A stretch of DNA of 64,000 nucleotides from Flavobacteriaceae bacterium (GTDB lineage: Bacteria > Bacteroidota > Bacteroidia > Flavobacteriales > Flavobacteriaceae). The stretch is from contig JANQMD010000003.1 of NCBI GenBank assembly GCA_028280265.1, positions 1-64,000 of the forward strand, given 5' to 3'. Position numbers and translations under genes: made by a program. Shown piece by piece: positions 32,281 to 54,481 of this stretch. The notes below the pieces were generated by a model. The model ran no database searches. It was not told where the DNA came from and saw only the letters and a program-made list of their open reading frames with translations. Each line of letters begins with the position of its first letter. Position 1 is the stretch's first letter.

Positions 32281-32294
32281 TTCATCATTCATCA
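32281..32294. repeat. Short TTCATCA heptamer array
   Basis: Two tandem copies of TTCATCA, the same unit and orientation as at 15721-15741. The second copy contains the stop codon of the minus-strand acyltransferase gene. Confidence 0.75.
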
Positions 32295-33185: not shown

Positions 33186-33193
33186 AGGAGTAA

Positions 33194-36656: not shown

Positions 36657-39458
36657 TTGAAACTACTTAAAAAAACCATCCTTTTTGTTTTTTGTTATGG
36701 TTTGTTTTTTGCAAATGCGCAAGAGATACCTCCTATAGAAACATTTATGCCAGAAGTATATGGTGCTGAAGATCAGAATTGGTCTATCTCACAAGGACAA
36801 GATGAAGTCATGTATTTTGCTAACAATAAAGGTTTGTTGGTGTACAATGGAGCCAAATGGCAGCTGTATGATTCACCTAATTCCTCTATAGTAAGGTCTG
36901 TTAAAGTTATTGGAGAGAAAATCTTTATAGGAAACTATATGGACTTTGGTTACTGGGTCAAAGATGATTTTGGGATTCTACAATACACGTCTATTGTTCA
37001 GAATAAAAATATCAATTTACTCGAAGATGAAGAGTTTTGGAATATTCTAGAGTTTGATCAGTGGATTCTTTTTCAATCACTAGATAGAATATACATATAC
37101 AATACTCAGAATGAGGGTATTCAACTGATTGAATCGGAAACAACCATTACTAAAATTTTTAAAGTAGGTGATAGTATCTATTTCCAAAAAATCAATCAAG
37201 GAATTTACAAGTTTGAAAACGGACAAGAAATATTAGTTACAGACAATCAGCTTCTTATCAATAAAATTGTCATTAATGTCTTTCAAGATGGTGACGGGGT
37301 TTTGCTTCAAACCAAAGAAGATGGCTTTTATATTTTTGAGAAGGGTGTCATAAAAACATGGGATACTCAACTCAATAAAAAATTATCAAATTACAGTATA
37401 TACAATACAATTAAGCTTAGAAATGGTGATTATATTTTAGGAACCGTATCTAATGGTATTATTTATGTAAATAAAGAGAAGGAAATTACGTATGAGATTA
37501 ACCAAAGTTCAGGCTTAGGAAACAATACCATTCTATCTTTATTCGAGGATATGAGAGGGAATGTATGGTTGGGTTTAGATCATGGTATCAATAATATTAA
37601 TTTTAAAGCTCCATTTCGAGTATATAAAGATAACTTAGGTATTATAGGTACGGTGTATACCACACTCATTGAGAACGATATATTTTACTTAGGAACCAAC
37701 CAAGGATTGTTCTATAAAGACCATACCAAAAATGAAACTTTCAAGTTTGTTAAAGGCACTGAAGGTCAAGTATGGCATTTAAGCAGCATACAGAATCAAA
37801 TTTTTTGTGGACATGACAAAGGTACTTTCATTATTGAAAATCAAAGAGCAAAAAAGATATCCGATATAGATGGAACATGGATTGTGAAGGAAGTTGAAAA
37901 CTCACCAAATCTCTTAATTCAAGGAAATTATAATGGCTTGTATATTCTTGAAAAACGCAGTAATAACTGGTATCTACGTAATAAAATAAAAGGCTTTGAT
38001 ATTTCTTCTAGATATATTGAATTTCTCTCTCAGAATGAATTATTGGTAAGCCATGAATACAAAGGAGTATACAGAATAGAAGTCGATAAACAGTATAGAA
38101 ATATTGTTTCTCTTGATAAAACTAAAATAGAGAAAAATGTAAAATCGAGCTTAATATCTTACAATGGGCAAGTATATTACGGCGCAAAAGATGGTGTTTT
38201 TGGCTACAACAAACTTCAAAAAGAATTTGTAAGAGATTCTATCTTAAGTCAACTATACAGTTTTCAAGATTATAGTTCAGGAAAATTAGTGCATTCAAAT
38301 GATAAATTGTTTGCTTTTTCAAACAAAGGAATCACATATGTGGAAAGAGGGAAACTCAGTGCCAATTATCAACTTTCCTTTTTACCACTTCCAAATAGTG
38401 TTAGAGAAACAAAAGATGGTTATGAAAATATCTCTTATATTGGTAAAAATCAATACCTAATTGGTACCTCTAGGGGATATATTATTTCTGAATTAACAAA
38501 TAACCTCGATCCTATAAATTATACAGTAAAGCTAAATCAGGTTACCTCTCATCGATTAAACGGTAAGTCAAGATTCCTTAATTTACTTGAGAGTAGTGAG
38601 TTGGATAATGATGAAAATTACCTTCAATTTTCATTTAGTGTTACAGATTATAATAAATACTTGCCTTCTTTTTATCAGTATAGGTTAAATGGATTTAATG
38701 ATAGTTGGACCGATTGGTCCGTTAAATCGAATGCCGTATTTGAAAACTTGCCTTACGGTGAATATACATTTGAAGTGAGAGCAAAGGTAGGAAGTACAAT
38801 AGCTAAAAATACTAGTCAATATCAATTTACAATCCTAAAACCTTGGTACATAAGCTCAACAGCAGTAATACTATATATTGTACTAAGTTTTATAGTAGTA
38901 ATTATTGTCCATTTGATTTATAGAACGTATTACAGAAATCAACGTAAAAAACTTCTTAAGCAAAAAGAAAGAGAACTAGAAATAAAGCAACTAGAGAATG
39001 AGCAACAATTGATGTATTTTAAGAATCTTGACTTACAAAAAGACATCGAGGCTAAAAATAGAGAACTTGGAATGTCTGCGATGAACCTTGTAAAAAGAAA
39101 TGAGTTATTGAGCACTATTAAAAAAGAGTTGAGTGCTGCAGTTGAAGTTGAAGATTTATCGAAAGTTGTAAAATTAATTAATAAAAATTTAGAAGGAACG
39201 AGTGATTGGGAAGTTTTTGAAGAAGCTTTTAACAACACAGATAAAGACTTCATAAAGAAATTAAAAACTCAGCATGTTAACTTAACATCCAATGATATTA
39301 GGTTGTGTACATACCTTAGATTAAATCTTTCTTCTAAAGAGATAGCACCACTATTAAATATTTCTATACGTAGTGTTGAGGTAAAACGCTATCGACTAAG
39401 AAAGAAGATGAATTTACCTCATGAAGCAAGCCTTTCAAGCTACATATTACAGCTTTAG
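36657..39458 (+). CDS. Membrane-spanning propeller/Y_Y_Y one-component regulator with LuxR-type HTH
   Basis: 933 residues, TTG start fixed by the signal peptide (LLKKTILFVFCYGLFFANAQ). Residues about 22-690 are a periplasmic sensor of propeller repeats (for example LFEDMRGNVWLGLDHGINNI), then a Y_Y_Y domain (YRLNGFNDSWTDWSVKSNAV), a single helix (STAVILYIVLSFIVVIIVHL, about 765-785), a coiled coil, and a C-terminal helix-turn-helix (LSSKEIAPLLNISIRSVEVK) with LuxR-like spacing. There is no kinase or receiver domain. The build matches hybrid two-component sensors cut short, and SusR-type transmembrane activators. It lies just upstream of the glucan operon in the same direction, so it is its probable activator. 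Confidence 0.82.
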   Translation: MKLLKKTILFVFCYGLFFANAQEIPPIETFMPEVYGAEDQNWSISQGQDEVMYFANNKGLLVYNGAKWQLYDSPNSSIVRSVKVIGEKIFIGNYMDFGYWVKDDFGILQYTSIVQNKNINLLEDEEFWNILEFDQWILFQSLDRIYIYNTQNEGIQLIESETTITKIFKVGDSIYFQKINQGIYKFENGQEILVTDNQLLINKIVINVFQDGDGVLLQTKEDGFYIFEKGVIKTWDTQLNKKLSNYSIYNTIKLRNGDYILGTVSNGIIYVNKEKEITYEINQSSGLGNNTILSLFEDMRGNVWLGLDHGINNINFKAPFRVYKDNLGIIGTVYTTLIENDIFYLGTNQGLFYKDHTKNETFKFVKGTEGQVWHLSSIQNQIFCGHDKGTFIIENQRAKKISDIDGTWIVKEVENSPNLLIQGNYNGLYILEKRSNNWYLRNKIKGFDISSRYIEFLSQNELLVSHEYKGVYRIEVDKQYRNIVSLDKTKIEKNVKSSLISYNGQVYYGAKDGVFGYNKLQKEFVRDSILSQLYSFQDYSSGKLVHSNDKLFAFSNKGITYVERGKLSANYQLSFLPLPNSVRETKDGYENISYIGKNQYLIGTSRGYIISELTNNLDPINYTVKLNQVTSHRLNGKSRFLNLLESSELDNDENYLQFSFSVTDYNKYLPSFYQYRLNGFNDSWTDWSVKSNAVFENLPYGEYTFEVRAKVGSTIAKNTSQYQFTILKPWYISSTAVILYIVLSFIVVIIVHLIYRTYYRNQRKKLLKQKERELEIKQLENEQQLMYFKNLDLQKDIEAKNRELGMSAMNLVKRNELLSTIKKELSAAVEVEDLSKVVKLINKNLEGTSDWEVFEEAFNNTDKDFIKKLKTQHVNLTSNDIRLCTYLRLNLSSKEIAPLLNISIRSVEVKRYRLRKKMNLPHEASLSSYILQL

Positions 39459-39722
39459 TTGAAAAAGAGGTGTATAACACCTATACATTACTACAACAAT
39501 CTTGTTTTTTAAAGCTTTAAGCTGTTTTTTATTAGATTATCAATAACCTATGAATAAAGGGTTTGAATTGCTAAATCCTTAAAAAATGATATTTTTTTTT
39601 GATATGTATATTTTTTATTGAGGTTTTATTTTTAAACCCAATAAATCTTAACATTAAATTTACCTTGATCGAAATAACGAACCATAATTCGATTGGACTA
39701 CTAAGCAATTAAATTATACAAT

Positions 39723-42700
39723 ATGAAAATTAAAGTCTTAACATTAGTGTTTCTTTTTTGTGCCTCGTTTTCATTTGCACAAGCAAATAAAGTAGAGGTT
39801 GTAAAGGATGCTAATGGAATGAAGCTAAAAGTAAATGGTGAAGATTTCATTATTAACGGTATCAATTGGGATTATGTTCCAATAGGTTACAACGTACTAG
39901 ATGCTAAATTCTGGGAAAAGCCAGATAATATTATCAAAGCTGGACTGGATGAAGAGATGCCTCTTTGGCAAAACATGGGAGTAAATGCTATTAGAACTTA
40001 TATAGGGATGCCTCCTAAATGGATTACCTATATATATGAAAACTTTGGAATCTACACGATGATAAACCATCAGTTTGGAGCCTATGGTTTAACTATTGAT
40101 GGTGTATGGAATCCAAAAACTAAATATGCTGACCCTAAAGTGAGAAAGCATCTGATTGATGAATCTGTAAAAATGGCTCAGATGTATAAAGATACTCCGG
40201 GTCTTTTGCTATTTATGTTAGGAAATGAAAACAATTATCACTTAACTTGGGAAGGAGCAGAAACCGATGAAGGTATAGTAATCAATGATCAAGATCAAGC
40301 GAAAAGAGCTGAGGCTAGGGCAATGTACAAGCTTTTTAACGATGCCGCTTTAGCAATGAAGAGAATTGGTACAAATCAACCTATTGGTATTTGTAACGGA
40401 GATTTACTATATCTAGATATTGTAGCTTCAGAATGTGCAGATATTGATATTTATGGTACAAACATGTACCGTGGTGTATCTTTTGTAGATGCTTTTGATA
40501 GAGTAAAAGAAGAATTTGGAAAGCCAATTCTTTTTACAGAATTTGGATCTGATGCATACAATGCTAAAGATAATAGAGAAGACCAGTTAATGCAATCATA
40601 CTATATGGTTAACAACTGGAAAGAAATTTATCAAAATGCATACGGACTAGGTAAAGCTCAAAATTCATTAGGTGGTTTTACATTTCAATCTAGTGATGGT
40701 TGGTTCAAAGCAGGATTTGATGAAAGAAAAGATGCAGATACCCACCAAACCCAAGCTAGCTGGCCAAGTAATGGTTACAGTAGAGATCAAGCGAAACCAG
40801 GAGACAAGAATATGAACGAGGAGTGGTTTGGTATTGCAGCAAAAGGTCCAACAGATATTAGAGGTTTGTATACTTTATATCCAAGAGCGGCATACTATTC
40901 TTTAAAAGAAGCACACAGTTTTAATCCATTTACTGGAACCGCGACTTCAGTTGATAATCACTTTAAGAATATCAATTTGATGGATGGCGTTCTCAGAGCA
41001 AGAGGAGATAAAGCTGCCTTAGGAGAAGGTGGTAGTGGTGGCCCAAAATTAGGAATCAGTAGATTACAAGCAAAGTTTACTACTTTCAATACTGGAGGAA
41101 GTCTTGTCACAACTCCAGATACTGATAACCCTAACGATAACACTTTCCCTAACCAAAAAGGTTTTGATCACATGCAATCTTATTTTATTGGTGTTGAAGG
41201 AAAGGCATCTAACAATATGAGAGCGAATGTGAACTTTAATATATTAGGAAACGTTGCTCAAAATCCAATCAATGAAATTTTCTATGAAAATGTAGGAAGA
41301 CCAGTAACAGTAACTGCTACTGATGGTACTGAGGTTGTAATGAACGATGTCAATAGATTACGTGTTTACAATGCAGAATTTGAATGGAATACTAAAAACC
41401 TTGATTTAAAAGGTTTCTACAGAACAGGTCATTACCACTGGGGCTACGAAGGAGATTTCTTCGGGTTATATCCAGAAGCTAATTATGGTCCAAATTTAGA
41501 CATCTATAACGGTGAGATTATGGGACTAGAAGTTCAAGGAAAAGAAGCTTTAAGCGGATTTACAGCGGCCATTGGACCACAGTTATGGTGGGGAGCAAAC
41601 CCAGCTATGCTTATGAAGTATTCAAAAGAAATAGCAAATTGGGAAGTAACGGGTATCTACCACAAAGATTTTGACAATAGTTCATTTCTTTTCTTCGGAG
41701 GTGGAGCAGAGATTCCTTTGGATCCAAATGGAAGACGTATCTTAAATCAAAACCAAATTCGAAGTGGTGTAATTCCTGCATGGCTTACAGAAAGAGCTAC
41801 TCTGGCTGCTGAAAAGACATTTGGAAAGTTTGAATTTAAACTAGGAGGTATCTGGGCTGGAAGACCACTTAATGGAATTGCATACCAAGATATTGACCAA
41901 AACGGTAATGTAGTAGTAGACAAAATTAAATCTTCTGATAACTTTGGTTGGAAAGCAAAATTAACCTATGAAGGAGGTAAATTTAATTGGTATGCCCAAG
42001 GAGGTGTTAATGGATTGGTAGCTAATGGTGGTGTAGATCAAACCCTAACATTTACAGGTTGGAAACTAAAAGATATAGGAAGCGGAAATATGTCTAACTT
42101 CTTAACTGGATTTGTAATAAATTCAGGAAGCTTTCAAATAGCACCTAACTTCTTATGGCAAAAGCCTTTGGTAGATGCCATGCCAAACAACGGAGCGGCT
42201 CCTGGTAGATTACGTAATGTAATTGATGATCCTTTTGCGGTACGTGGAAACCGAGAAACTACAGGTGCTGAGATTTTGCTTACTTTCGATCCAACACCTG
42301 CAACGTATATGTATCAGTGGGATAATGATAGAGCTGAAGACGCAAAATTTGCAATGAATTTAGGATTTGTGTTTAGACATCAGCCCACAACTACAGATGC
42401 TCATATTGGTTTCTTAGCGAATCGTAATTTCTTCGCCTTTGGAAACTCAGCACCTGCACAAGATTTATGGGAAGTACATTCTAAAATGGTTTCTAAATTG
42501 AATCCTTATCTAGGAATTATCGGTAATTTCTACTACGGAAACGGTCAAGGAAACGGTGGTGGTGCCGATGGAAGTGCTATCAATAGAACCATAACTCGTT
42601 TCGGAGCCGACTTAAGAATGATCTACAAGAATATGAAGATCACATCACATGTTAAGGTAAACGATTGGGGACCTTATGATTATCACAGAGATTTCAACCA

Positions 42701-42944
42701 AACTTTCCCGCTTCAATTAATGCTGAATGTTTCTACATCATTAGGAAAACCTGATTGGTTTATTTTACCTAATACAGAAATAGGAGTCATGGGAACTTGG
42801 AGATCATTAGATAGATTCTCTGGTGCTAGATATTCTCCTTTAGCTGCAGAGCCAAATTCTGATCCTGTTCTTAGTCCTGTAGGTTTCCCTAATGGAAGTG
42901 AGTGGGAAGTGAGAACTTACATACATATTAATATTGGAAAATAA
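39723..42944 (+). CDS. Clan GH-A glycosidase fused to a probable outer-membrane beta-barrel
   Basis: 1073 residues. Signal peptide (cut after FSFAQ). Residues about 25-430 are a TIM-barrel glycosidase of clan GH-A: GINWDYVPIG, acid/base E169 in LLFMLGNENNYH, and nucleophile E273 in PILFTEFGSD. From about 450 to the end the sequence changes to alternating polar/aromatic strands with glycine-rich turns (YFIGVEGKASNNMRANVNFN, FGWKAKLTYEGGKFNWYAQG, and the last strand WEVRTYIHINIG), the pattern of an outer-membrane barrel of about 600 residues. The CAZy family is not certain (GH2- or GH17/GH72-like core). It is the first gene of the glucan operon, where a SusC/SusD pair would be expected. An imperfect inverted repeat upstream (39668-39693) is a possible operator. 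Confidence 0.72.
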   Translation: MKIKVLTLVFLFCASFSFAQANKVEVVKDANGMKLKVNGEDFIINGINWDYVPIGYNVLDAKFWEKPDNIIKAGLDEEMPLWQNMGVNAIRTYIGMPPKWITYIYENFGIYTMINHQFGAYGLTIDGVWNPKTKYADPKVRKHLIDESVKMAQMYKDTPGLLLFMLGNENNYHLTWEGAETDEGIVINDQDQAKRAEARAMYKLFNDAALAMKRIGTNQPIGICNGDLLYLDIVASECADIDIYGTNMYRGVSFVDAFDRVKEEFGKPILFTEFGSDAYNAKDNREDQLMQSYYMVNNWKEIYQNAYGLGKAQNSLGGFTFQSSDGWFKAGFDERKDADTHQTQASWPSNGYSRDQAKPGDKNMNEEWFGIAAKGPTDIRGLYTLYPRAAYYSLKEAHSFNPFTGTATSVDNHFKNINLMDGVLRARGDKAALGEGGSGGPKLGISRLQAKFTTFNTGGSLVTTPDTDNPNDNTFPNQKGFDHMQSYFIGVEGKASNNMRANVNFNILGNVAQNPINEIFYENVGRPVTVTATDGTEVVMNDVNRLRVYNAEFEWNTKNLDLKGFYRTGHYHWGYEGDFFGLYPEANYGPNLDIYNGEIMGLEVQGKEALSGFTAAIGPQLWWGANPAMLMKYSKEIANWEVTGIYHKDFDNSSFLFFGGGAEIPLDPNGRRILNQNQIRSGVIPAWLTERATLAAEKTFGKFEFKLGGIWAGRPLNGIAYQDIDQNGNVVVDKIKSSDNFGWKAKLTYEGGKFNWYAQGGVNGLVANGGVDQTLTFTGWKLKDIGSGNMSNFLTGFVINSGSFQIAPNFLWQKPLVDAMPNNGAAPGRLRNVIDDPFAVRGNRETTGAEILLTFDPTPATYMYQWDNDRAEDAKFAMNLGFVFRHQPTTTDAHIGFLANRNFFAFGNSAPAQDLWEVHSKMVSKLNPYLGIIGNFYYGNGQGNGGGADGSAINRTITRFGADLRMIYKNMKITSHVKVNDWGPYDYHRDFNQTFPLQLMLNVSTSLGKPDWFILPNTEIGVMGTWRSLDRFSGARYSPLAAEPNSDPVLSPVGFPNGSEWEVRTYIHINIGK

Positions 42945-42955
42945 AAAAACAAGAC

Positions 42956-44902
42956 ATGAAAACATTGAAAAATATAAATTTAAAAACCACAGCTTTTATT
43001 TTAGTCTTAGCTACAGCGTTTTTAGGATGTGAAAGGAATTTGTCTGATGATATCGTTTTGGCAACTTTTCCAACAACTGCAGAGATTTTTACAGATGCTC
43101 CTGTGGGTCTGACTGATCAATTTTTTAGATCCTTTGATCCAGCACAAGGTGCTAACACCAGTGGTTTTGGTGTGGATGATAAAGTAGCTTATGCAGGAAC
43201 TTCATCTATTCGAATTGATGTTCCTGGATCTAACGACCCAGATGGAAACTTTATAGGGGGTATTTTTGAAGATCGTGGAGCAGGAAGAGACTTAAGAGGG
43301 TATGATGCTTTGACTTTTTGGGCAAAAGGTTCTACTTCTGGACCTGTATTGGTCGGATTTGGAACTGATTTTGATCGACTTCCTACAGATCCATCTTATA
43401 ATGTTTCAGCGACTATACAACTAGGTACTGGATGGAAGAAATATGTAATTCCTATGCCAGACCCTTCAAAATTAGCTCAAGAAACAGGAATGTTCTTGTT
43501 CTCGGCAGGTGGTGTTGATCCAGTTGGAGATGGACCCAACGGGAATGAGCTAGCTTGGACATTCTGGATCGATGAGTTACGATTTGAAAAATTAGGAACT
43601 GTAGCACAACCTAGACCAGCTATCTTAAATGGTAGTAGTAAATCAATACAAAGTTTTAACGGGGCAGCTGTAAAACTTGACGGACTTACGCAAACATTCA
43701 ACCTTTCAAGTGGTCAGGATATTACAACAACAGTATCTCCTAGGTATTTCACATTCAACTCGTCAAATACTGCAGTTGCAACGGTGAATTCATCTGGAGA
43801 TATTTCCGTACTTACTCAAGGAAATACTACTATTACGGCAAGTTTAAACGGAGTTAATGCAAATGGTTCATTAGCAATACAATCTCTAGGAGTTTTTACA
43901 CCTGCACCAACGCCTACAAGAAATGCTGCAAACGTAATTTCTTTGTTTAGTGATGCATATACGAATGTTCCTGTAGATTATTACAATGGGTTCTGGCAAC
44001 CATTCCAAACCACACTATCGGCTGACTTTTTGGTTAATGGAGATAACGTGTTAAATTATACGAACTTTAACTTTGTAGGGACTAGCTTTAGTAACCCTAC
44101 AGTGAATGCGTCTTCTATGACTGATGTTCACCTTGATATATTCATCCCTGGAGCATTAGATCCTGGTGCACAATTAAAAATTACAATCCGTGATTTTGGA
44201 CCTGACGGTGTTGATGGCGGAGGAGATGATACAAATTTAGTAACAACATTAACGAGTGCAAATTTAGCAGCCAATGCATGGAGCAGTATTGATATTTCTC
44301 TAGCTTTAGCAAGCAAGAGTAGACTAGGGTTAATAATCTATGAGAACAATGGAACAAACCTAAGTAACTTCTATGTTGATAATTTATATTTCTATGAAGT
44401 TCCTACTGCGCCAACAGTTGCAGCACCAGCTCCAACTTTGCCTGCAGCCAATGTAATTTCAATGTTTAGCGATCAATATACCGATGTTCCTGTAGATACA
44501 TGGAACACTGGATGGAGTAGTGCTGCTTTTCAGGATGTAACAATAGCTGGAAATGCTACAAAAGAGTATAAAAGCTTGTCATTTAACGGTATTGAAACTG
44601 TAGGTACTCCAATCAACGCTACTTCAATGACACATATTAGTATGGATGTATGGACACCTAACATTACTGCTTTTAAAGTGAAATTAGTGGATTTCTTGGG
44701 GAATGGTTTTGGAAATGGAGATACAGAAGCTGAGTTAACATTTACCCCAGCTCAAAGCCAATGGGTAACCTTAGATATTCCACTCAGTAGCTTTACAAAT
44801 GCAGGGATGACAGCATTAAATGATATTAATCAATTGGTCATCTCATGCGACCCAAGCGGAGGAGGTATCGTATATATCGATAATGTATACTTCCATAACT
44901 AA
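42956..44902 (+). CDS. Glucan-binding surface lipoprotein (SGBP-like)
   Basis: 648 residues. Lipobox AFLGC (cysteine near residue 25). Domains in order: a CBM11/CIA30-like beta-sandwich (about 75-215, GGIFEDRGAGRDLRGYDALT), a bacterial Ig-like domain (about 225-310), and two copies of a module that begins NVISLFSDAYTNVPVD / NVISMFSDQYTDVPVD and ends FYVDNLYFYE / VYIDNVYFHN (about 325-485 and 498-648). The same module occurs twice in the secreted protein at 54727. No catalytic residues are seen. Eleven bp after the hydrolase-barrel gene; probably captures beta-glucan at the cell surface. Confidence 0.8.
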   Translation: MKTLKNINLKTTAFILVLATAFLGCERNLSDDIVLATFPTTAEIFTDAPVGLTDQFFRSFDPAQGANTSGFGVDDKVAYAGTSSIRIDVPGSNDPDGNFIGGIFEDRGAGRDLRGYDALTFWAKGSTSGPVLVGFGTDFDRLPTDPSYNVSATIQLGTGWKKYVIPMPDPSKLAQETGMFLFSAGGVDPVGDGPNGNELAWTFWIDELRFEKLGTVAQPRPAILNGSSKSIQSFNGAAVKLDGLTQTFNLSSGQDITTTVSPRYFTFNSSNTAVATVNSSGDISVLTQGNTTITASLNGVNANGSLAIQSLGVFTPAPTPTRNAANVISLFSDAYTNVPVDYYNGFWQPFQTTLSADFLVNGDNVLNYTNFNFVGTSFSNPTVNASSMTDVHLDIFIPGALDPGAQLKITIRDFGPDGVDGGGDDTNLVTTLTSANLAANAWSSIDISLALASKSRLGLIIYENNGTNLSNFYVDNLYFYEVPTAPTVAAPAPTLPAANVISMFSDQYTDVPVDTWNTGWSSAAFQDVTIAGNATKEYKSLSFNGIETVGTPINATSMTHISMDVWTPNITAFKVKLVDFLGNGFGNGDTEAELTFTPAQSQWVTLDIPLSSFTNAGMTALNDINQLVISCDPSGGGIVYIDNVYFHN

Positions 44903-44930
44903 TAGAATATCAATTTTAAGATTAGAAAAG

Positions 44931-45764
44931 ATGATGAAAAAACATAAAATAGCAATAAAATTCTTGTCATTATCAGCTCTTTTGCTGACTGTCTTGGGGT
45001 GTAATCCAAATGAGACACAAACAGTGACAAATTTCACAAATCTTGTTTGGCAAGATAATTTCGATACCAATGGAGCTCCTGATCCAAATCGTTGGACCTT
45101 TGATATGGGAGACGGTACTGCTGAAGGAATTCCTGGATGGGGAAATAATGAATTGCAGTATTATACAAACAGACCAGAAAATGTAGTCGTTGAGAATGGA
45201 ATGTTAAAGATTACTGCAAGACGAGAATCATTCCAAGGATCTAATTATACAAGTGCTAGAGTATTAACTAAAGGAGGTTTGTTTCAGCAGACTTATGGGC
45301 GCTTTGAAGCAAGAATTAAATTGCCATGGGGACAAGGATTATGGCCTGCATTTTGGATGTTAGGAACAAATTCTAATACGTGGCCTCAAAGAGGTGAAAT
45401 CGATATTATGGAGAATCGTGGGTCAGAACCTACTATTATTCATGGTAGTGTACATGGACCTGGTTATTCTGGAGGACAGGCAACTACTAAAAAGTATGAA
45501 TTGACAAATGATCGTTTCGATACTGGATTCCATGTATTTGGTGTAGAGTGGGGGCCAAACTACATCAATTATTATGTAGATGATGTGTTATACAACCAAA
45601 TTACACCTAGTGATGTTACAGGGCAATGGGTATTTAATGACAATCCTTTTTACCTCATCTTAAACGTAGCCGTAGGAGGAAGCTTTGGAGGAGCTCCAAA
45701 TGCCAATACAGTATTTCCACAAACAATGTATGTAGACTACGTAAGAGTATATTCACAAAATTAA
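44931..45764 (+). CDS. GH16 endo-beta-1,3-glucanase (laminarinase) lipoprotein
   Basis: 277 residues from the ATG at 44931 (a second ATG follows at 44934). Lipobox LLTVLGC. One GH16 domain with the catalytic signature E156-I-D158-I-M-E161 (GEIDIMENRG), and the flanking substrate-cleft strands WPAFWMLG, GVEWGPNYINYYVDD and LILNVAVGGSFGG typical of the laminarinase subfamilies. Cleaves internal beta-1,3 bonds of laminarin-type glucan, here on the cell surface or in the periplasm. Third gene of the operon. GH16 identity is firm; laminarin as substrate follows from its neighbours. Confidence 0.92.
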   Translation: MMKKHKIAIKFLSLSALLLTVLGCNPNETQTVTNFTNLVWQDNFDTNGAPDPNRWTFDMGDGTAEGIPGWGNNELQYYTNRPENVVVENGMLKITARRESFQGSNYTSARVLTKGGLFQQTYGRFEARIKLPWGQGLWPAFWMLGTNSNTWPQRGEIDIMENRGSEPTIIHGSVHGPGYSGGQATTKKYELTNDRFDTGFHVFGVEWGPNYINYYVDDVLYNQITPSDVTGQWVFNDNPFYLILNVAVGGSFGGAPNANTVFPQTMYVDYVRVYSQN

Positions 45765-45779
45765 AAAGAAAAATAACAT

Positions 45780-45814
45780 CCCCTACTGGGCAACTATTCT
45801 GGTAGGGGTATTTT
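45780..45814 (+). terminator. Internal hairpin/attenuator within the glucan operon
   Basis: CCCCTAC ... GTAGGGG with a 15-nt loop followed by TATTTT, in the only long gap (96 bp) of the operon, between GH16 and the phosphorylase. It may reduce read-through, separating surface enzymes from cytoplasmic ones. Confidence 0.6.
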
Positions 45815-45860
45815 ATAACCAAACAATAAATTAAGAACGTAACGTACTAATTATAGTAAA

Positions 45861-48800
45861 ATGATTAGCGACAGGATTTTAGATAATAGTATTATGAATC
45901 AGCACAAAGAAGTTAGATTAGACTCAATACGCATCGACGGAGAACGATTTTATAAAATTTCGAATAGCGATGCAATGAGACCATTTTTTATGAGTGTAGT
46001 GAGCGATTCCGATCATTGGATGTTTATATCTAGTAACGGAGGTCTCACAGCAGGTAGAAAGAATGCAGAATATTCATTATTCCCCTATTATACAGACGAT
46101 AAAGTAACCGAATCATCAGATATTACAGGAAGTAAATCAATCTTTAGGGTCCACAAAGGAAACCAAATACATTTATGGGAACCTCTCACAGTAAGATCAC
46201 AAGGAAGATTTAATGTATCTCAGAACCTATACAAAAATAAGTATGGGAATAAAATCATATTTGAGGAAATAAACCATGACTTAGAATTAACCTTCCAATA
46301 CCAATGGAATTCTAGTGATGATTATGGTTTTGTTAAAAAATCTAAAATCATCAATTCCGGAGATGATTTAATAAACATTGAGGTTTTAGATGGAATCCAG
46401 AATATTGTGCCTGCTAGCATAGGTAGCGATGTTCAAAATCAATCTAGTAATCTTGTAGATGCTTACAAGAGAAACGAGTTACAAGAGTCTACAGGACTAG
46501 GAATTTATGCATTAAGTGCTATTTTGGTTGATAAGGCTGAAGCTAGCGAGGCATTAAAAGCCAATGTTGTTTGGTCTCTTGGAATTGAGAATCCTAAATA
46601 TTTGGTCTCTTCGCTGCAGCTAAACGATTACAGAAAATTTAAGGATATCTCTCAAGAAAATGATGTAAAAGCTGAAAAAGGAGCATACTTTATCAATGCC
46701 AACATCCAACTATCAGCAGGTTCTGAAAAAGAGTGGATGATCATCGCGAATGTAAACTTAAACCATTCGGCAATAGCCTTGCTTTCACACAAAATTAAAG
46801 AGAATAAAGGGCTTGAAGATAGCATCAATGAAAATATCGAATTAGGAACAAGAAAGCTGATTGAATTAAATGCAGCTTCAGATGCCATTCAGAGCTCATC
46901 AGATAGTTTAAGAGATGCACGTCATTTTTCAAATACTTTGTTTAACATCATGCGAGGAGGAATCTTTGATGATAATTACACTATTGAAAAGTGGGACTTT
47001 AAAAACTACTTAGCAAAAGCAAATAAAAAAGTTGCAAGAACCTCTGAAAGTATACTAGAGAACCTAGGAGATGCTTTTTCAGTAGAAGAGCTTCACAAGG
47101 TGGCTTATGAGAATGACGACAAGAACTTTAGAAGGCTAAGTTTAGAGTACATGCCTCTTAAGTTTAGTAGAAGACATGGAGATCCAAGTAGACCTTGGAA
47201 TATTTTCTCTATCAATACAAGAAATGAAGCAGATGGCTCTAAAATCTTAGACTACGAAGGAAACTGGAGAGATATTTTCCAGAATTGGGAAGCGTTAGCA
47301 CATTCATATCCCGAGTTTATCGAGAGCATGATTCATAAGTTTTTAAATGCAACAACTTTTGATGGATACAACCCGTATCGTGTTACTAAGGGTGGGTTTG
47401 ACTGGGAAATCATCGAGCCAGATGATCCTTGGTCGTATATCGGTTATTGGGGAGATCATCAAATCATTTACCTATTAAAGTTCCTCGAGTTTATTAACGA
47501 TTTTAAACCAGGGCAATTACAGAGTTTCTTTGAAAAAGAATTGTTTGTATACGCAAACGTTCCTTACAAGATAAAGTCTTATGAAGATTTATTAGTAAAC
47601 CCTAAAGACACCATCATTTTCGATGAAGATTTAGATGCTAAAATTCGCAGAGAAAGATCAGAGTTAGGAGCAGATGGAGCATTATTACGTGACGAGAATA
47701 GATTTATTGTTAAATCGAATTTCATAGAGAAAATATTAGTAACGACACTTGCTAAGCTATCTAATTTCATTCCAGAAGGAGGAATTTGGATGAATACACA
47801 GCGCCCTGAGTGGAATGATGCAAATAATGCTTTGGTAGGAAATGGTGTTTCTATGGTAACATTGTACTATTTGAGACGCTTTTTCAAATTCTTAGAAGGT
47901 TTACTTGAAAAATCGACAATAGAAGAAGTCGCTATTTCCAGAGAATTAGTTGACTTCTATAATAAAGTTTCTAACACGTTTGAAACTCACAAAAACTTAC
48001 TTTCAGGTAGCATCAATGATGTAGATAGAAAGCAAATTGTAGATGAGTTAGGTCAAGCAGGAAGTGATTACAGAGATCAGATTTATGACCACGCATTCTC
48101 TGGAAGAAAAAATAACATCTCTATAAGCGAGCTACTTAGCTTTGCAAAAACAACATTACAGTATTTAGAGCACTCCATTGATGCAAATCAAAGAGAAGAT
48201 CACTTGTATCATGCATACAACCTAATGACGGTGAATGATAATAATTCGATATCTGTCTCTTATTTAAGTGAGATGTTAGAAGGACAGGTTGCAGTATTGA
48301 GTTCAGGATATCTATCCTCACAAGAAGCATTAAATGTTCTCAATGGTTTGAAAAGTAGTAAGTTATTCAGACACGATCAGTATAGTTACCTACTTTACCC
48401 AAATAAAGAACTAAAAGGTTTCTTAGATAGGAATAACATTCCAGAAGATTCTGTTCTCTCATCAAAACTATTACAAGAGTTTTTGAAAAAAGGAAATACA
48501 CGTATTATCGAAAAAGATATAAACGGTGAATATCATTTTAATGGAAACTTTAAAAATGCTGAAGACGTTTCTGCTGAGTTAGATACCTTAATGGATACTG
48601 AATATAAAGACCTTATTCTTTCTGATAGAAAAAAAGTACTAGATGCTTTCGAGGAAGTGTTCAACCATAAAGCATTTACAGGAAGATCAGGAACCTTCTA
48701 TGGATACGAAGGTCTAGGTTCTATCTATTGGCACATGGTTTCTAAATTATTATTAGCCGTTCAAGAATGTTGTTTAAAAGCAGTTAATGATCAGGAGAGC

Positions 48801-49328
48801 GATGCTTTAGTAGGTCAGTTGCTTGAACATTATTACGAAATCAACGAAGGTATTGGGGTTCATAAATCTCCATCCTTATACGGAGCATTCCCAACAGACC
48901 CATATTCACATACGCCATTAGGAAAAGGTGCGCAACAACCGGGAATGACAGGTCAAGTAAAAGAAGATATCTTAAGTCGTTTTGGAGAGTTAGGAATTTC
49001 TGTTGAAGATGGAAAGATTCGCTTTTACCCCTGCTTGTTAAGAAAAGTAGAATTTGTAAAAGAAGAAAAGCCATTTGTTTATATCAACCTCTCTAAAGAG
49101 AAAAAAACAATTCAGTTAGAAAAAGAATCTTTAGGATTTACCTATTGTCAAGTGCCAGTTGTTTACCGATTGTCTTCTGAAGATGCTTTAGAGCTCATAT
49201 TTGAAGATGGTAGCACCCAAAACTATCAAGGTCTTACCATAGATAAAGAAAACAGTGAGCACATATTCAAGCGAACTGGAAGAATAGCTCAGGTAAGAGC
49301 GCATGTAAACGAAAGTCAACTAAAATAA
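45861..49328 (+). CDS. Beta-1,3-glucan phosphorylase, GH149-like (GH94-related)
   Basis: 1155 residues without a signal peptide, so cytoplasmic. An N-terminal beta-sandwich (RPFFMSVVSDSDHWMFISSN, GLTAGRKNAEYSLFPYYTDD) precedes an (alpha/alpha)6 barrel, as in GH94-type inverting phosphorylases. The catalytic aspartate is probably D653 in QRPEWNDANNAL, matching the GH94 DWND motif; later motifs are HKSPSLYGAFPTDPYSHTPL and QPGMTGQVKEDILSRFG. The large size (GH94 enzymes are about 800) and the context of GH16/GH17/GH30 point to GH149. It would convert imported beta-1,3-gluco-oligosaccharides and phosphate to glucose-1-phosphate, saving ATP. Starts at ATG 45861 or 45894. Confidence 0.75.
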   Translation: MISDRILDNSIMNQHKEVRLDSIRIDGERFYKISNSDAMRPFFMSVVSDSDHWMFISSNGGLTAGRKNAEYSLFPYYTDDKVTESSDITGSKSIFRVHKGNQIHLWEPLTVRSQGRFNVSQNLYKNKYGNKIIFEEINHDLELTFQYQWNSSDDYGFVKKSKIINSGDDLINIEVLDGIQNIVPASIGSDVQNQSSNLVDAYKRNELQESTGLGIYALSAILVDKAEASEALKANVVWSLGIENPKYLVSSLQLNDYRKFKDISQENDVKAEKGAYFINANIQLSAGSEKEWMIIANVNLNHSAIALLSHKIKENKGLEDSINENIELGTRKLIELNAASDAIQSSSDSLRDARHFSNTLFNIMRGGIFDDNYTIEKWDFKNYLAKANKKVARTSESILENLGDAFSVEELHKVAYENDDKNFRRLSLEYMPLKFSRRHGDPSRPWNIFSINTRNEADGSKILDYEGNWRDIFQNWEALAHSYPEFIESMIHKFLNATTFDGYNPYRVTKGGFDWEIIEPDDPWSYIGYWGDHQIIYLLKFLEFINDFKPGQLQSFFEKELFVYANVPYKIKSYEDLLVNPKDTIIFDEDLDAKIRRERSELGADGALLRDENRFIVKSNFIEKILVTTLAKLSNFIPEGGIWMNTQRPEWNDANNALVGNGVSMVTLYYLRRFFKFLEGLLEKSTIEEVAISRELVDFYNKVSNTFETHKNLLSGSINDVDRKQIVDELGQAGSDYRDQIYDHAFSGRKNNISISELLSFAKTTLQYLEHSIDANQREDHLYHAYNLMTVNDNNSISVSYLSEMLEGQVAVLSSGYLSSQEALNVLNGLKSSKLFRHDQYSYLLYPNKELKGFLDRNNIPEDSVLSSKLLQEFLKKGNTRIIEKDINGEYHFNGNFKNAEDVSAELDTLMDTEYKDLILSDRKKVLDAFEEVFNHKAFTGRSGTFYGYEGLGSIYWHMVSKLLLAVQECCLKAVNDQESDALVGQLLEHYYEINEGIGVHKSPSLYGAFPTDPYSHTPLGKGAQQPGMTGQVKEDILSRFGELGISVEDGKIRFYPCLLRKVEFVKEEKPFVYINLSKEKKTIQLEKESLGFTYCQVPVVYRLSSEDALELIFEDGSTQNYQGLTIDKENSEHIFKRTGRIAQVRAHVNESQLK

Positions 49329-49341
49329 ACACAGATTACAC

Positions 49342-50601
49342 ATGAGAACGAGCAATTATCTTTTACTATTATTTCTTTCAAGTATCATGTGTTTTTGTGA
49401 TAGTCCTAAAACTAAAGAAAAGAGTCAAATGACAGCAAAAGAGATATTAGGGAATCCATCGTATTTAGCGATTTCGTATGGAGGATACCGAAAAACTTCA
49501 AGACATATTCAGCCAACGATTAATCAATTGAAGGAAGATATGAAAATCCTTCAAGCGATGGGCATTAAAATGTTACGTACATACAATGTTCAATTAGCTC
49601 AGGCACCTAACTTATTAAAAGCTATTTCAGAATTGAAACAAGAAGATTCAAGCTTTGAAATGTATGTCATGTTAGGAGCATGGATCGATTGTAAGAATGC
49701 ATGGACAGCAAAAGCTCCAGATCATAATGTAGAAAGCGAACAAAATGAAGGTGAAATTGCCAGAGCAGTAGCTTTGGCTAACCAATATCCTGACATTGTA
49801 AAAGTAATAGCAGTAGGAAATGAAGCCATGGTAAAATGGGCTACAAGCTATTATGTCCAGCCAGATGTTATCTTGAAATGGGTGAACTATTTACAAGATC
49901 TCAAAAGCTCAGGAAAACTTTCTAAAGACTTGTGGATTACAAGTTCAGATAATTTTGCTTCATGGGGAGGTGGAGACAGTGAATATCATGTAGAAGACTT
50001 GAACAAATTGATTAAAGCTGTAGATTTTATCTCGATGCACACCTATCCAATGCATGATACGCATTACCATCCTGTATTCTGGGGGGCAAGTAAAGAGGCT
50101 TCAAAACAGGAAATGATTGATGATGCCATGTTAAAAGCAAAAGAATATGCAATCTCGCAATACGATAGTGTAAAGAGCTATATGGAAAGTTTGGGAGTGA
50201 ACAAACCAATTCACATTGGTGAAACAGGTTGGGCGTCATTTTCTAATGGTCATTATGGTGATAATGGCAGTAAAGCAACTGATGAATACAAAGAAGCTAT
50301 TTATTACAAGCACATGAGAGAGTGGACCAAAGAAGCAGGAATGTCTTGCTTTTACTTTGAAGCTTTCGATGAGCCATGGAAAGATGCACAAAACCAAGGA
50401 GGGTCAGAGAATCACTTTGGACTTATAACAGTTGATGGAAAGGCTAAGTATGCTCTTTGGGATTTAGTTGATAAAGGCATATTTAAAGGTCTTACACGTG
50501 ATGGTAATACAATTACAAAGACATACAATGGTAGTAAAGAAGACTTGCTAAAAGAAGTTCAATTACCACCTTTAAAAAAAGAAATGTCACTAGTACATTA
50601 A
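49342..50601 (+). CDS. GH17 beta-1,3-glucanase/glucanosyltransferase lipoprotein
   Basis: 419 residues. Lipoprotein signal ending near SIMCFC. The GH17 TIM barrel has acid/base E161 in AVGNEAMVKW and nucleophile E294 in IHIGETGWAS; ISYGGYR near the N-terminus and FYFEAFDEPWKD near the C-terminus are typical of the family. GH17 enzymes cleave or transfer beta-1,3-glucan chains. Lipid-anchored, so it acts outside the cytoplasm, unlike the second GH17 at 53591. Thirteen bp after the phosphorylase gene. Confidence 0.9.
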   Translation: MRTSNYLLLLFLSSIMCFCDSPKTKEKSQMTAKEILGNPSYLAISYGGYRKTSRHIQPTINQLKEDMKILQAMGIKMLRTYNVQLAQAPNLLKAISELKQEDSSFEMYVMLGAWIDCKNAWTAKAPDHNVESEQNEGEIARAVALANQYPDIVKVIAVGNEAMVKWATSYYVQPDVILKWVNYLQDLKSSGKLSKDLWITSSDNFASWGGGDSEYHVEDLNKLIKAVDFISMHTYPMHDTHYHPVFWGASKEASKQEMIDDAMLKAKEYAISQYDSVKSYMESLGVNKPIHIGETGWASFSNGHYGDNGSKATDEYKEAIYYKHMREWTKEAGMSCFYFEAFDEPWKDAQNQGGSENHFGLITVDGKAKYALWDLVDKGIFKGLTRDGNTITKTYNGSKEDLLKEVQLPPLKKEMSLVH

Positions 50602-50619: not shown

Positions 50620-52110
50620 ATGAAAAGAGTTAAAAAATACAGTCTCTCAATGCTTATATTAATGGCAGTAACCTCTTGTACTTCGGAGAAGTCATCATTA
50701 AATGTAGAAGTTTTAGAAACATCTAGAAGTGGAAACAAACTAACACAGGTTTCAGAATTTAAAACTTCTGCTGATGCATCTACCATAGTAATCAATCCTG
50801 AAAAGAAATACCAGACTATTACAGGTTTTGGTGGAGCTTTTACAGAATCATCAGCTTATTTACTGAATAAATTAAGCAAGGCAAACAGAGATGAAATTTT
50901 GAAAGCTTATTTCGATAAAGATGGAGCTAACTATTCGTTAACAAGAACTCATATGAATTCATGTGATTTCTCTTTAACAAACTATTCATATACACCTGTT
51001 GAAGGAGATAAAGAGTTAAAGCATTTCACGATACAAGAAGATATGGATGATCTGATTCCTATGATCAAAGATGCAATGCAAGCTTCTCAGGATGGATTTA
51101 AAATTTTTGCTTCTCCATGGTCAGCTGCTCCTTGGATGAAAGATAATAATAATTGGGTTGGAGGGAAACTACTACCCGAATATTATGATACTTGGGCATT
51201 GTTCTTTTCAAAATATATCGATGCTTATAAAGAACAGGGAATAGAAATTTGGGGATTCACTGTAGAAAATGAACCTCATGGAAATGGAAATAATTGGGAA
51301 AGTATGCACTTTTCTCCCAAAGAAATGACAGATTTTGTAGAATTTCATTTAGGACCAAAATTAGAGGCTGATGGCTATGGAGATAAAATTATTTTGGGGT
51401 ATGACCAAAATAGAGCTGGATTAAAAGAATGGGTAGATGAAATGTATCGTAGTGAATCTTCATCAAAGTACTTCCATGGTACAGCCATACATTGGTATGA
51501 AAGCACCTATGATTTCTTTCCTGAAGCTTTACAATATGCTCATAACAAAGCTCCAAGCAAGTATTTGATAGAAACAGAAGGTTGTGTAGATTCTGAAGTG
51601 CCAAAATGGAATGACGATGATTGGTATTGGAGAAAAGAAGCAACCGATTGGGGTTGGGACTGGGCATCTGAAAAAGAAAAATACTTGCATCCAAAATATG
51701 CTCCCGTTAATCGTTATGCGAGAGATATAATCGGTTGCCTAAACAACTGGGTAGACGGTTGGGTAGATTGGAACATGGTTCTTGATACACAAGGAGGTCC
51801 AAACTGGTTTAAAAACTGGTGTGTAGCTCCTGTGATTGTAGACCCAGAAAAAGATGAGGTATACTTTACACCATTGTACTATACAATGACTCATTTCAGT
51901 AAGTATATCCGTCCTGAAGCAGAAGTTATAGATGCTCAAAACTCTGACAAAGATTTAATGGTTACCGCAGCTAAAAATCCTGATGGTTCTATCGCTGTTG
52001 TAGTTTTTAATGAAGGAGAAAGTGAAAAGACTTTTCAGCTAACATTAGGAGAAAAATCTAAGAATATATCAATCAAAGCACAAGCGATACAAACGATCGT
52101 AATCAACTAA
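50620..52110 (+). CDS. GH30 beta-glucosidase/beta-1,6-glucanase lipoprotein
   Basis: 496 residues. Lipobox cysteine C20 (MAVTSC). N-terminal beta-strand piece and TIM barrel of GH30: QTITGFGGAFTESSA, SPWSAAPWMKDN, acid/base E218 in WGFTVENEPHG, nucleophile E318 or E320 in YLIETEGC, then the C-terminal beta-sandwich (IAVVVFNEGESEKTFQLTL). GH30 members in laminarin loci remove beta-1,6-linked glucose branches; glucosylceramidase-like activity is less likely here. Eighteen bp after the GH17 gene. Confidence 0.9.
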   Translation: MKRVKKYSLSMLILMAVTSCTSEKSSLNVEVLETSRSGNKLTQVSEFKTSADASTIVINPEKKYQTITGFGGAFTESSAYLLNKLSKANRDEILKAYFDKDGANYSLTRTHMNSCDFSLTNYSYTPVEGDKELKHFTIQEDMDDLIPMIKDAMQASQDGFKIFASPWSAAPWMKDNNNWVGGKLLPEYYDTWALFFSKYIDAYKEQGIEIWGFTVENEPHGNGNNWESMHFSPKEMTDFVEFHLGPKLEADGYGDKIILGYDQNRAGLKEWVDEMYRSESSSKYFHGTAIHWYESTYDFFPEALQYAHNKAPSKYLIETEGCVDSEVPKWNDDDWYWRKEATDWGWDWASEKEKYLHPKYAPVNRYARDIIGCLNNWVDGWVDWNMVLDTQGGPNWFKNWCVAPVIVDPEKDEVYFTPLYYTMTHFSKYIRPEAEVIDAQNSDKDLMVTAAKNPDGSIAVVVFNEGESEKTFQLTLGEKSKNISIKAQAIQTIVIN

Positions 52111-52123: not shown

Positions 52124-53560
52124 ATGAGTAATGTAAAAACAGCTACTAAAGATAGAGTCCCAGTTGGGCAGAAAGCAGCTTTTGGAGCAGGGCATTTAAT
52201 TAATAACCTTATTCCAGGAATACTAGGTGTTTTTGTTGTAATACTTAAATCCAATGAAGGTTTTGCAATGAATACAATATTAGCAGGTTTAATTGTTGGT
52301 ATTCCAAGGCTATTTGATGCTATAACTGATCCTGTAATGGGATATGTATCCGATAATACCAGTTCCAACTATGGACGAAGACGACCATATATTTTTATAG
52401 GTGCTTTATTATCAGGTATTATTTTTACTGTTTTATGGCAAGTCCATGATACGAACCCAGAAATGTATAATTTCTGGTACTTGCTTATCTTCTCAATACT
52501 TCTAATCTTTGGAAATACTATTTTCTCAACACCATTAATAGCATTAGGCTATGAGATGACCTCCGATTATAAAGAGCGTACTCGTTTGATGAGTTTTGCA
52601 AATACAATTGGACAAATAGCCTGGATGTTAGTTCCTTTTCTATATGTACTTATTCCAGATAAAGACATTTTTGCTACGCAACCAGAGGGTGTTAGAAAAA
52701 TAGCCTTAATAGCTGGAGCTGTTATTATTATTCTTGGAGTTTTACCAGCTATTTTCTGTCGTGGTATAGATGCAAGTAAAATGGAGGGTAGAGAGGACAT
52801 TACACTTAAAAGTCTTTTCGGAAGTATGGGGAAGATTTTTAAAGGAATCAAGCAAGTTCTAAAGAACAGACCTTTTGCAAAACTTTGTCTTGCCACTTTT
52901 TTAGTCTTCAATGGTTTTCAAATTGTTGCTGAATTTGGAGTATTTATCATCAATTTTTACATGTTTGATGGAGATTGGGGGGCTTCAAAATGGTGGATAG
53001 CACTTTTCCCAGCTGTAACAGCCGCGTATACTGCATTCATTGCCATTCCTATCATTAATTGGATGGCTAATAAATGGGGAAAAAGAAAAGCTTTTGTTTA
53101 CGCTACAGCAATTTCTATCGTTGGATATGTGTTAAAATGGTGGGGATTCGACCCTGAGAATCCATTTATGATTTTCCTTCCTATTCCACTTATGGCTTTT
53201 GGTATGGGATGTTTATTTACTTTGATGATGAGTATGACGGCAGATGTTTGTGATTTGGATGAGTTAGAAAACGGAATGCCAAGAAAAGAAGGAACTTTTG
53301 GAGCTATATATTGGTGGATGATTAAAGTTGGTCAAGGATTAGCTTTGGTATTATCGGGAGTTATTCTTAGTCTTCTAGGGTACGATCCAAAAGCTTCAAC
53401 ACAGACAGCTGAGGCACTCATTGGAATGAGAATAACAGATATAGTGCTTCCTGCGTTAACTGCCGCATTGGCAATATGGGTGATGTGGAAATACAGTCTC
53501 GATGAAAAAAGAGCTAAGGAAATTAAAGTTGAATTAGTGAAAAGAAGAGGCGAACTTTAA
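52124..53560 (+). CDS. GPH-family (MFS) sugar transporter
   Basis: 478 residues, twelve helices, inner membrane. The GPH signature is RLFDAITDPVMGYVSDNT, with RRRPYIFIGA after it and the mid-protein repeat GFQIVAEFGVFIINFY. GPH carriers take up disaccharides and oligosaccharides with Na+ or H+. It is the only transporter in the glucan operon and so the probable importer of laminari-oligosaccharides for the cytoplasmic phosphorylase and GH17. Confidence 0.88.
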   Translation: MSNVKTATKDRVPVGQKAAFGAGHLINNLIPGILGVFVVILKSNEGFAMNTILAGLIVGIPRLFDAITDPVMGYVSDNTSSNYGRRRPYIFIGALLSGIIFTVLWQVHDTNPEMYNFWYLLIFSILLIFGNTIFSTPLIALGYEMTSDYKERTRLMSFANTIGQIAWMLVPFLYVLIPDKDIFATQPEGVRKIALIAGAVIIILGVLPAIFCRGIDASKMEGREDITLKSLFGSMGKIFKGIKQVLKNRPFAKLCLATFLVFNGFQIVAEFGVFIINFYMFDGDWGASKWWIALFPAVTAAYTAFIAIPIINWMANKWGKRKAFVYATAISIVGYVLKWWGFDPENPFMIFLPIPLMAFGMGCLFTLMMSMTADVCDLDELENGMPRKEGTFGAIYWWMIKVGQGLALVLSGVILSLLGYDPKASTQTAEALIGMRITDIVLPALTAALAIWVMWKYSLDEKRAKEIKVELVKRRGEL

Positions 53561-53590: not shown

Positions 53591-54481
53591 ATGTCAGTTA
53601 GAGAAGAAAAATTTTTAGCATTAGCAAATGTTGATTATGCAGATAAGTCAATTGAAGACTTGAGAGCTTTGTTTAGAAAAGTACTTAAATCTGGTATGCA
53701 TGGGTTATGTTCTAGCCCATACGAAGAAGGTCAAAAACCAGGAGATCAGTTGTCAGAAGAGCAGGTTAGAAGAAGACTAAGCATTATGCGTCCGTATACA
53801 GATTGGATTCGTTCTTTTTCTTGTACAGATGGAAACGAAATGATCCCTAAAATAGCAAAAGAGTATGGGATGAAAACCATGGTAGGTGCTTGGTTGGGAG
53901 ATGATCCAGAAATTAATCACAAAGAGCTGGAAAACCTAATTCAGTTATGTCATCAGGGACATGTTGATATTGCAGCTGTTGGAAACGAAGTTATGTACAG
54001 AGGAGATTTAAATGAAGCGGAGCTTTTGGATAAAATCTACTATGTGAAAGCATCTATTAAGGATTTAAACATTCCTGTAGGATATGTAGATGCCTACTAT
54101 GAATTCCATGACCGCCCTGCAATTACTGAAGCTTGCGATGTAATCTTAGCAAATTGCTATCCTTTTTGGGAGGGTTGTGACCAAGACTACTCATTGTTGT
54201 ATATGAAAGATATGTATAACAAAGCAAAACGAGCAGGCAATGGAAAAAAAGTTATTGTTTCTGAAACAGGCTGGCCTAGTCAAGGAACCAATTTACAAGG
54301 GGCATTTCCATCTGAAGAAAACGCCATTAAGTATTTTATCAATGCTCAAAAATGGTCTCAAGAAGAAGGCATAGAAATATTTTATTTCTCCTCTTTTGAT
54401 GAATCTTGGAAAGTTGGCTCAGAAGGTGATGTAGGTGCTTATTGGGGAATTTGGGACAAAGATGAGAATTTGAAATATTAA
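53591..54481 (+). CDS. Cytoplasmic GH17 enzyme
   Basis: 296 residues with no signal peptide or lipobox. A bare GH17 domain: acid/base E133 in AVGNEVMYRG and nucleophile E225 in VIVSETGWPS, plus DFYFSSFDESW-like FYFSSFDESWKVGSEGD at the C-terminus. It differs strongly from the lipoprotein GH17 of the same operon. Placed behind the transporter, it would trim imported beta-1,3-oligosaccharides, perhaps to the size preferred by the phosphorylase. Last gene of the operon; a strong terminator follows. Confidence 0.87.
   Translation: MSVREEKFLALANVDYADKSIEDLRALFRKVLKSGMHGLCSSPYEEGQKPGDQLSEEQVRRRLSIMRPYTDWIRSFSCTDGNEMIPKIAKEYGMKTMVGAWLGDDPEINHKELENLIQLCHQGHVDIAAVGNEVMYRGDLNEAELLDKIYYVKASIKDLNIPVGYVDAYYEFHDRPAITEACDVILANCYPFWEGCDQDYSLLYMKDMYNKAKRAGNGKKVIVSETGWPSQGTNLQGAFPSEENAIKYFINAQKWSQEEGIEIFYFSSFDESWKVGSEGDVGAYWGIWDKDENLKY

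Follow-up and report, generated by a model that had tools for sequence, protein, structure and literature searches.

The DNA analyzed here is a stretch of 64,000 nucleotides from Flavobacteriaceae bacterium GCA_028280265.1 (contig JANQMD010000003.1, positions 1-64,000, forward strand), which we refer to as the window. It carries a gene whose product joins a GH158-like glycosidase to a predicted outer-membrane beta-barrel. Scans of ten genes (36657-56286) placed glucan enzymes, a regulator and a sugar symporter together in a cluster that is opened by this fusion gene, and the assignment of the cluster as a laminarin (beta-1,3-glucan) catabolic locus is well supported. Its genes are the following (GH, glycoside hydrolase family; T9SS, type IX secretion system).

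36657..39458, + strand: Y_Y_Y/LuxR-type regulator directly upstream of the fusion gene (library scans)
39723..42944, + strand: fusion gene, GH158-like glycosidase plus predicted 24-strand outer-membrane beta-barrel, 1073 amino acids
42956..44902, + strand: partner lipoprotein with two repeated domains; Big_2 match and, below threshold, a CBM11 match; FLGC read by eye as lipobox
44931..45764, + strand: GH16 beta-glucanase, with LTVLGC read by eye as a lipoprotein signal
45861..49328, + strand: GH149 beta-1,3-glucan phosphorylase; score 1805 bits (model cut-off 1150), no signal peptide seen
49342..50601, + strand: GH17 (library scan)
50620..52110, + strand: GH30; nearest NCBIfam model endo-1,6-beta-glucanase, under that model's cut-off
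52124..53560, + strand: GPH-type sugar symporter, inner membrane
53591..54481, + strand: second GH17; no signal peptide seen
54727..56286, + strand: T9SS-sorted protein; domains like those in the C-terminal half of the partner lipoprotein

Glycan uptake by Bacteroidota is mostly explained via SusC and SusD. A search of the bacterium's own genome found the SusD family at four places and the TonB plug domain (PF07715) at 33, none of them inside the window, and the neighboring lipoprotein likewise gave no SusD match. Bacteroidetes "CAZyme clusters" with GH149 and without susCD have already been recorded in passages of PMC5827456.

The N-terminal part of the fusion protein contains the following features.

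39723..39782, + strand: signal peptide, type I by eye (MKIKVLTLVFLFCASFSFAQ; sequence reading)
39792..41018, + strand: GH-A (beta/alpha)8 catalytic domain, residues 24-432 (profile, domain matches, model, structural matches)
40227..40229, + strand: E169, likely acid/base, following N168; invariant, aligned with GNE of GH158 and N136/E137 of BuGH158
40539..40541, + strand: E273, likely nucleophile; invariant, aligned with TEFG of GH158 and E220 of BuGH158

The protein's own sequence gave weak glycosidase matches in Pfam and NCBIfam. Among 21 aligned relatives, GH2_C was matched in 17 and Glyco_hydro_cc in 10 (Pfam, E<=0.1). A profile built on the 21 sequences found the GH158 structure 9oro in the PDB, a weak match (E=7e-4, residues 135-274, ~18% identity) in whose alignment the GH158 motifs GNE and TEFG line up with N168/E169 and with E273, three residues that are invariant across the alignment. 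The best structural matches of the domain are GH158 endo-laminarinases, and a section of PMC7157763 reports that changes at N136, E137 or E220 deprive BuGH158 of its activity. The domain has the clan GH-A fold with a catalytic Asn-Glu and Glu. These results confirm the GH-A domain with E169 and E273 recognized in an earlier note on this DNA and sharpen it, as judged from sequence and fold, to a likely GH158-like laminarinase within a laminarin cluster.

The remainder of the protein, about 600 residues which the same note had called barrel-like, is organized as follows.

41049..42935, + strand: C-terminal beta-barrel, residues 443-1071, 24 predicted strands (two models, structural matches)
41427..41513, + strand: conserved outward loop S5-S6, residues 569-597; 15 of 29 positions invariant
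41583..41603, + strand: conserved outward loop S7-S8, residues 621-627, LWWGANP; 6 of 7 invariant
42009..42089, + strand: conserved outward loop S13-S14, residues 763-789; 13 of 27 invariant
42669..42701, + strand: conserved outward loop S21-S22, residues 983-993, GPYDYHRDFNQ; 8 of 11 invariant

AlphaFold2 returned 24 long strands both in the full-length model and in a barrel-only model (residues 432-1073, 113 sequences, mean predicted local distance difference test (pLDDT) 78.1, predicted template modeling score (pTM) 0.79), and thus twice predicted a beta-barrel rather than a soluble beta-sandwich or beta-helix. The mean hydrophobicity alternation is 1.82 in the C-terminal part, which is devoid of cysteine, versus 1.20 in the GH part, and in the model inward turns are mostly of 2-6 residues and outward loops of 7-40. 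All 50 VIA structural matches listed for the barrel are outer-membrane barrels. AlgE is the top match; among those listed, the end of the model is reached by the ushers PapC and FimD and by two TonB-dependent transporters, FrpB (to 642) and OprC (to 639). In a profile search, no solved chain matched the barrel sequence up to E=1, and the Pfam matches of the 21 members (E<=0.1) include no plug (PF07715), autotransporter or usher domain. Together, an outer-membrane barrel fold is well supported by the models, with no match to a known barrel family.

Across the 21 aligned sequences, invariant positions make up 26% of the outward loops, 22% of the strands, 23.5% of the GH domain and 15.5% of the inward turns. 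Fixed aromatic and charged loops would suit the need of a sugar constriction, and we think that the barrel is not a passive anchor. Because the predicted strand number is even, the first strand starts and the last one ends at the short-turn side, and the linker is of about 10 residues (433-442), the enzyme should be located on the periplasmic side of the outer membrane.

The N-terminal part of the partner lipoprotein was used to analyze the pairing of this protein with the barrel.

43028..43870, + strand: N-terminal part of the partner lipoprotein (N-domain), residues 25-305, co-occurring with the barrel

When the same 395 genomes of the phylum Bacteroidota were searched with the whole fusion protein, the barrel and the N-domain, matches were obtained in 43, 34 and 34 genomes, respectively. 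Barrel and N-domain were found together in 33 genomes, in 32 of which the lipoprotein lies at most 400 bp downstream (Fisher p about 1e-45 for the 395 genomes and 2e-8 within the enzyme-bearing ones, values that are descriptive since the genomes are related). The exceptions are G235, whose barrel frame is broken or cut and which was scored as barrel without lipoprotein, and G126, which has a lipoprotein-like match without barrel. A single fused barrel without adjacent lipoprotein gene (L027, G144 contig 41) has an N-domain match about 10 kb upstream on the same contig. The enzyme occurs alone in nine genomes, none of which has a barrel or a lipoprotein match, and the gene following it in eight enzyme-only loci is GH149 in five cases and GH30 in one. 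The occurrence of the lipoprotein therefore follows that of the barrel rather than that of the enzyme or the cluster.

No intact barrel in the 395 genomes was found apart from the enzyme, whereas the enzyme also exists without barrel; the barrel was present in frames of at least 1028 amino acids in 33 of the 34 genomes. This pattern would fit an enzyme that is needed to gate or drive the pore. A search of the protein database with residues 491-1073 gave 951 hits. Forty of the 120 matches listed begin past query residue 400 and hence are without enzyme, and 36 of these start at an internal family residue, often M420. No signal peptide was seen at the starts shown (seven sequences fetched, of which P0131 alone is among the 40). 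Free-standing barrels were rejected as an explanation of these hits, most of which start as cut or broken gene calls would. P0131 sits on a long contig, and a true stand-alone barrel of this kind may exist outside the 395 genomes.

In the T9SS-sorted protein at 54727-56286, whose domains are homologous to the lipoprotein's C-terminal repeats, no catalytic domain was matched; the protein is possibly a secreted laminarin-binding protein.

Next, we consider the neighborhoods of the best 80 of at least 580 confirmed relatives in the genome collection. The gene following the fusion gene encodes the partner lipoprotein in 78 of these loci, the other two ending at the end of the stretch. GH16 is present in 76 and GH149 in 62. 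SusC/SusD were searched for by blastp (E<=1e-6, against the own-genome and two fetched reference pairs) in the 58 loci flanked by 9 kb or more on each side, and were not found in 35, in 33 of which the regulator directly precedes the fusion gene.

To place the enzyme-only relatives, a tree of the GH domain was used that contains 39 fused and 11 enzyme-only rows, 49 of them different (L011 and L028 are one gene); G332 (L019), which is cut at a contig end, was omitted. The enzyme-only rows are dispersed among the fused ones, and well-supported branches force seven label changes. The simplest reading of these sequences would be that barrel and lipoprotein were lost repeatedly. Because the tree is rooted at its midpoint only, several losses of the barrel are no more than the simpler account of the seven changes. 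Right behind the stop of the enzyme gene in L020 (G119, just past 3464) a 47-residue remnant of the start of the barrel is found (34% identity, E=1.5e-7), which apparently points to barrel loss there; the sequence after the eight remaining enzyme-only genes yielded no such remnant (best E 0.5). L155 (G242) is a very diverged enzyme-only relative on the longest branch of the tree (1.45), with a lipobox and with GH149 and GPH nearby; its neighbors include genes that we take to be of gyrase type.

From the computed domain order, catalytic residues, cluster content, missing plug match and co-occurrence of barrel and lipoprotein, and from the predicted fold and strand count, we infer the function of the pore, the side of the enzyme, TonB independence and gating. 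We lean slightly toward the reading that an enzyme, likely a laminarinase, and a 24-strand outer-membrane pore, paired with the lipoprotein encoded by the next gene, would together take up laminarin. The surface lipoprotein would capture beta-1,3-glucan, the surface GH16 lipoprotein would shorten it, and the chains would pass into the barrel and through a constriction lined by its conserved aromatic and charged loops. At the periplasmic mouth the GH158-like domain would cut the incoming chains, block their sliding back and pull import onward without TonB; with cleavage at the inner mouth, long chains would stay at low concentration there and could not return, which would amount to a passive ratchet. 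GH17 and GH30 would trim the products further, the GPH symporter would import them, and GH149 would phosphorolyze them in the cytoplasm. A 24-strand pore would leak, and we therefore propose that the enzyme, from below, and the lipoprotein, from above, also help to close it. Since barrel and lipoprotein come without a plug, no TonB handle is visible. With a GH-A enzyme fused to a predicted barrel of the outer membrane, a coupling of cleavage to import, as the earlier note had suggested, is plausible.

Several observations weigh against this proposal. Two inward turns are longer than the others (856-876, 21 residues; 1006-1018, 13 residues), and query-normalized template modeling scores (TM-scores) to solved barrels are low, 0.24-0.36 among the 50 matches listed. 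The mean column identity of the outward loops (0.655) is below that of the strands (0.72) and of the GH domain (0.715), because the loops are of two kinds and only some are fixed: loops 569-597, 621-627, 763-789 and 983-993 are near-fixed (0.85-0.99), and loops 650-689 (0.25) and 943-955 (0.41) vary freely. The periplasmic position of the enzyme is deduced from topology rules, with a full-length pTM of 0.53. Enzyme-only relatives keep the enzyme without the barrel. Moreover, 23 of the 58 well-covered loci have SusC/SusD within the cluster or close to it, and a SusC/SusD pair on contig 7 of the bacterium's own genome is 55%/71% identical to the pair in the laminarin-type cluster of G304, so that, on this resemblance, a second laminarin route probably exists in this bacterium.

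At L148 (contig 7 of this genome, G000; 68000-87000) a separate SusC/SusD pair lies with a 686-amino-acid protein that shares the binding-type domain; laminarin enzymes of the kinds present in the window were not found in the 19 kb examined, and the locus may be such a second route. Among the enzyme-only loci, SusC and SusD precede the enzyme in L151 and L153, L154 has SusC only, about 12 kb away, and neither was found in L152 and L155; L015, L016 and L020 have little flank. A strict replacement of SusCD by the fusion system was rejected, given the loci that carry both and the inconsistent enzyme-only loci.

An alternative that we consider unlikely, if worth keeping in view, is that the barrel serves merely as an anchor or self-secretion domain which displays the enzyme at the surface in the manner of an autotransporter and carries no sugar. 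A lipobox is seen by eye in six of the 11 enzyme-only tree rows (L151, L154, L155, L015, P0347 and P0337; L152 is ambiguous), and a lipid anchor therefore seems able to replace the barrel; in addition, beta-1,3-glucan loci of Bacteroides usually have surface endo-glucanases (BuGH16, in a section of PMC7157763). Such a role is hard to reconcile with 24 predicted strands, a linker of about 10 residues and no autotransporter match in the 21 members, with several nearly invariant outward loops, and with a lipoprotein gene that vanishes together with the barrel when GH149 often remains.

It is less probable still that the enzyme sits on the outer face of the barrel and feeds it from outside, the barrel again being the pore of this import system. 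Endo-glucanases do work outside in the Bacteroides locus, as far as that source goes, and the position of the enzyme relative to the barrel is not fixed in the full-length model (pTM 0.53). The even strand count, both termini at the short-turn side and the short linker argue against it. The strand and loop pattern would favor a periplasmic enzyme over one tethered outside.

Export or remodeling of a self-made beta-glucan, comparable to alginate export via AlgE, is very improbable: AlgE tops the structural matches and three of the 21 members give weak matches to GH72 (glucanosyltransferase), but the ten scanned cluster genes comprise hydrolases, a phosphorylase and a sugar symporter and no glycosyltransferase, which speaks against the surface-glucan building or remodeling that the earlier note had also raised. 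Equally remote is a C-terminal half that is not inserted in the membrane, or a barrel wrong in strand number or closure, which the missing solved relative, the low TM-scores and a mean pLDDT of 78 would favor and which two agreeing models, short turns alternating with long loops, the absence of cysteine and the outer-membrane barrels throughout the matches listed oppose.

The import system proposed here resembles several known systems in part. SusC barrels, like those of other TonB-dependent transporters, have 22 strands, and the plug of SusC is N-terminal, the place in which the enzyme domain of the fusion protein stands. Both systems combine an outer-membrane barrel with an adjacent surface-type lipoprotein gene in a glycan locus, but the fusion system has no plug match (PF07715), no SusD match and 24 predicted strands. 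PapC and FimD ushers, which secrete pili, have 24 strands as well and an inserted plug; they align along the whole barrel model, but no sequence relation was found, the usher Pfam domain is unmatched and the ten scanned cluster genes include no pilus or chaperone gene. AlgE, OprD/Occ porins and maltoporin have 16-18 strands. They are among the best structural matches and are outer-membrane barrels for the passage of sugars or small acids, but they come without an enzyme, and the good fold matches to AlgE and OprD-type porins have no counterpart in sequence among solved chains. Type V autotransporter barrels have 12 strands, compared with 24 here, and their domain is unmatched in the 21 members.

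GH158 proteins (BuGH158, 6pal; GH158(Pro), 9oro) share the (beta/alpha)8 fold and the aligned N/E and E catalytic residues, and likewise occur in a beta-1,3-glucan locus beside GH16 and glycan-binding lipoproteins, as described in part in PMC7157763. Identity is ~18%, however, and BuGH158 carries a type II signal and is encoded apart from the TonB-dependent transporter of its locus, whereas here enzyme and barrel form one chain. In Formosa and other marine Flavobacteriia, GH17 is fused to a major facilitator superfamily (MFS) transporter (parts of PMC6246565 and PMC10108472). This MFS-GH17 fusion also unites enzyme and transporter in one chain for laminarin, and as portrayed there is the nearest precedent for the coupling; it consists of GH17 and an alpha-helical transporter of the inner membrane, while the fusion protein is predicted at the outer membrane. 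In the window, the GPH symporter and the signal-less GH17 (52124-54481) are separate neighbors with a gap of 30 bp, and look like the unfused form of the MFS-GH17 fusion.

Muricauda laminarin clusters have a gene set of the same kind, and an upstream gene is called a GH2 beta-glycosidase in the part of PMC13188888 (2026) that treats them; locus L058 bears the accession of a strain in that article, and L042 comes from a species that it names. The main text of that article contains neither "outer membrane" (word-start search) nor "TonB" or "SusD" (whole-word searches). By gene order and strain rather than by sequence comparison, this "GH2" gene seems to belong to the fusion family, and the label "GH0" in the literature is likely the fusion protein. 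A glycosidase fused to an outer-membrane barrel was not found in the titles and abstracts listed by the literature searches, which leave subscription papers outside.

Two further observations concern the flanks of the cluster. Upstream of its regulator, two genes lie in tandem (32292-34090), which we take to resemble lipid A acyltransferases of the LpxL/HtrB type. Downstream, at 61100-62353, there is what is presumably a tyrosine-recombinase-like gene, and it possibly marks a mobile element.

The wider form of the proposal, held tentatively and with less confidence than the uptake reading itself, is that Bacteroidota may have a second, TonB-independent route, in which laminarin import through a 24-strand sugar pore would be driven by cleavage, with the pore's own endo-glucanase serving as gate and ratchet in the periplasm and a dedicated surface lipoprotein serving as lid, in hundreds of sequenced genomes. 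Expression of SusC/D is used to infer what marine bacteria eat (sections of PMC6298971). In 35 of the 58 well-covered relatives no SusC/D was seen, which suggests another door for many laminarin clusters, and a pore that works as proposed would explain how sugar is imported in the clusters lacking SusCD. If true, the pore would represent an outer-membrane importer gated by an enzyme, a kind without precedent in the literature searched, and a single machine would both cut and import laminarin, an algal sugar that ranks among the great reservoirs of sugar in the ocean.

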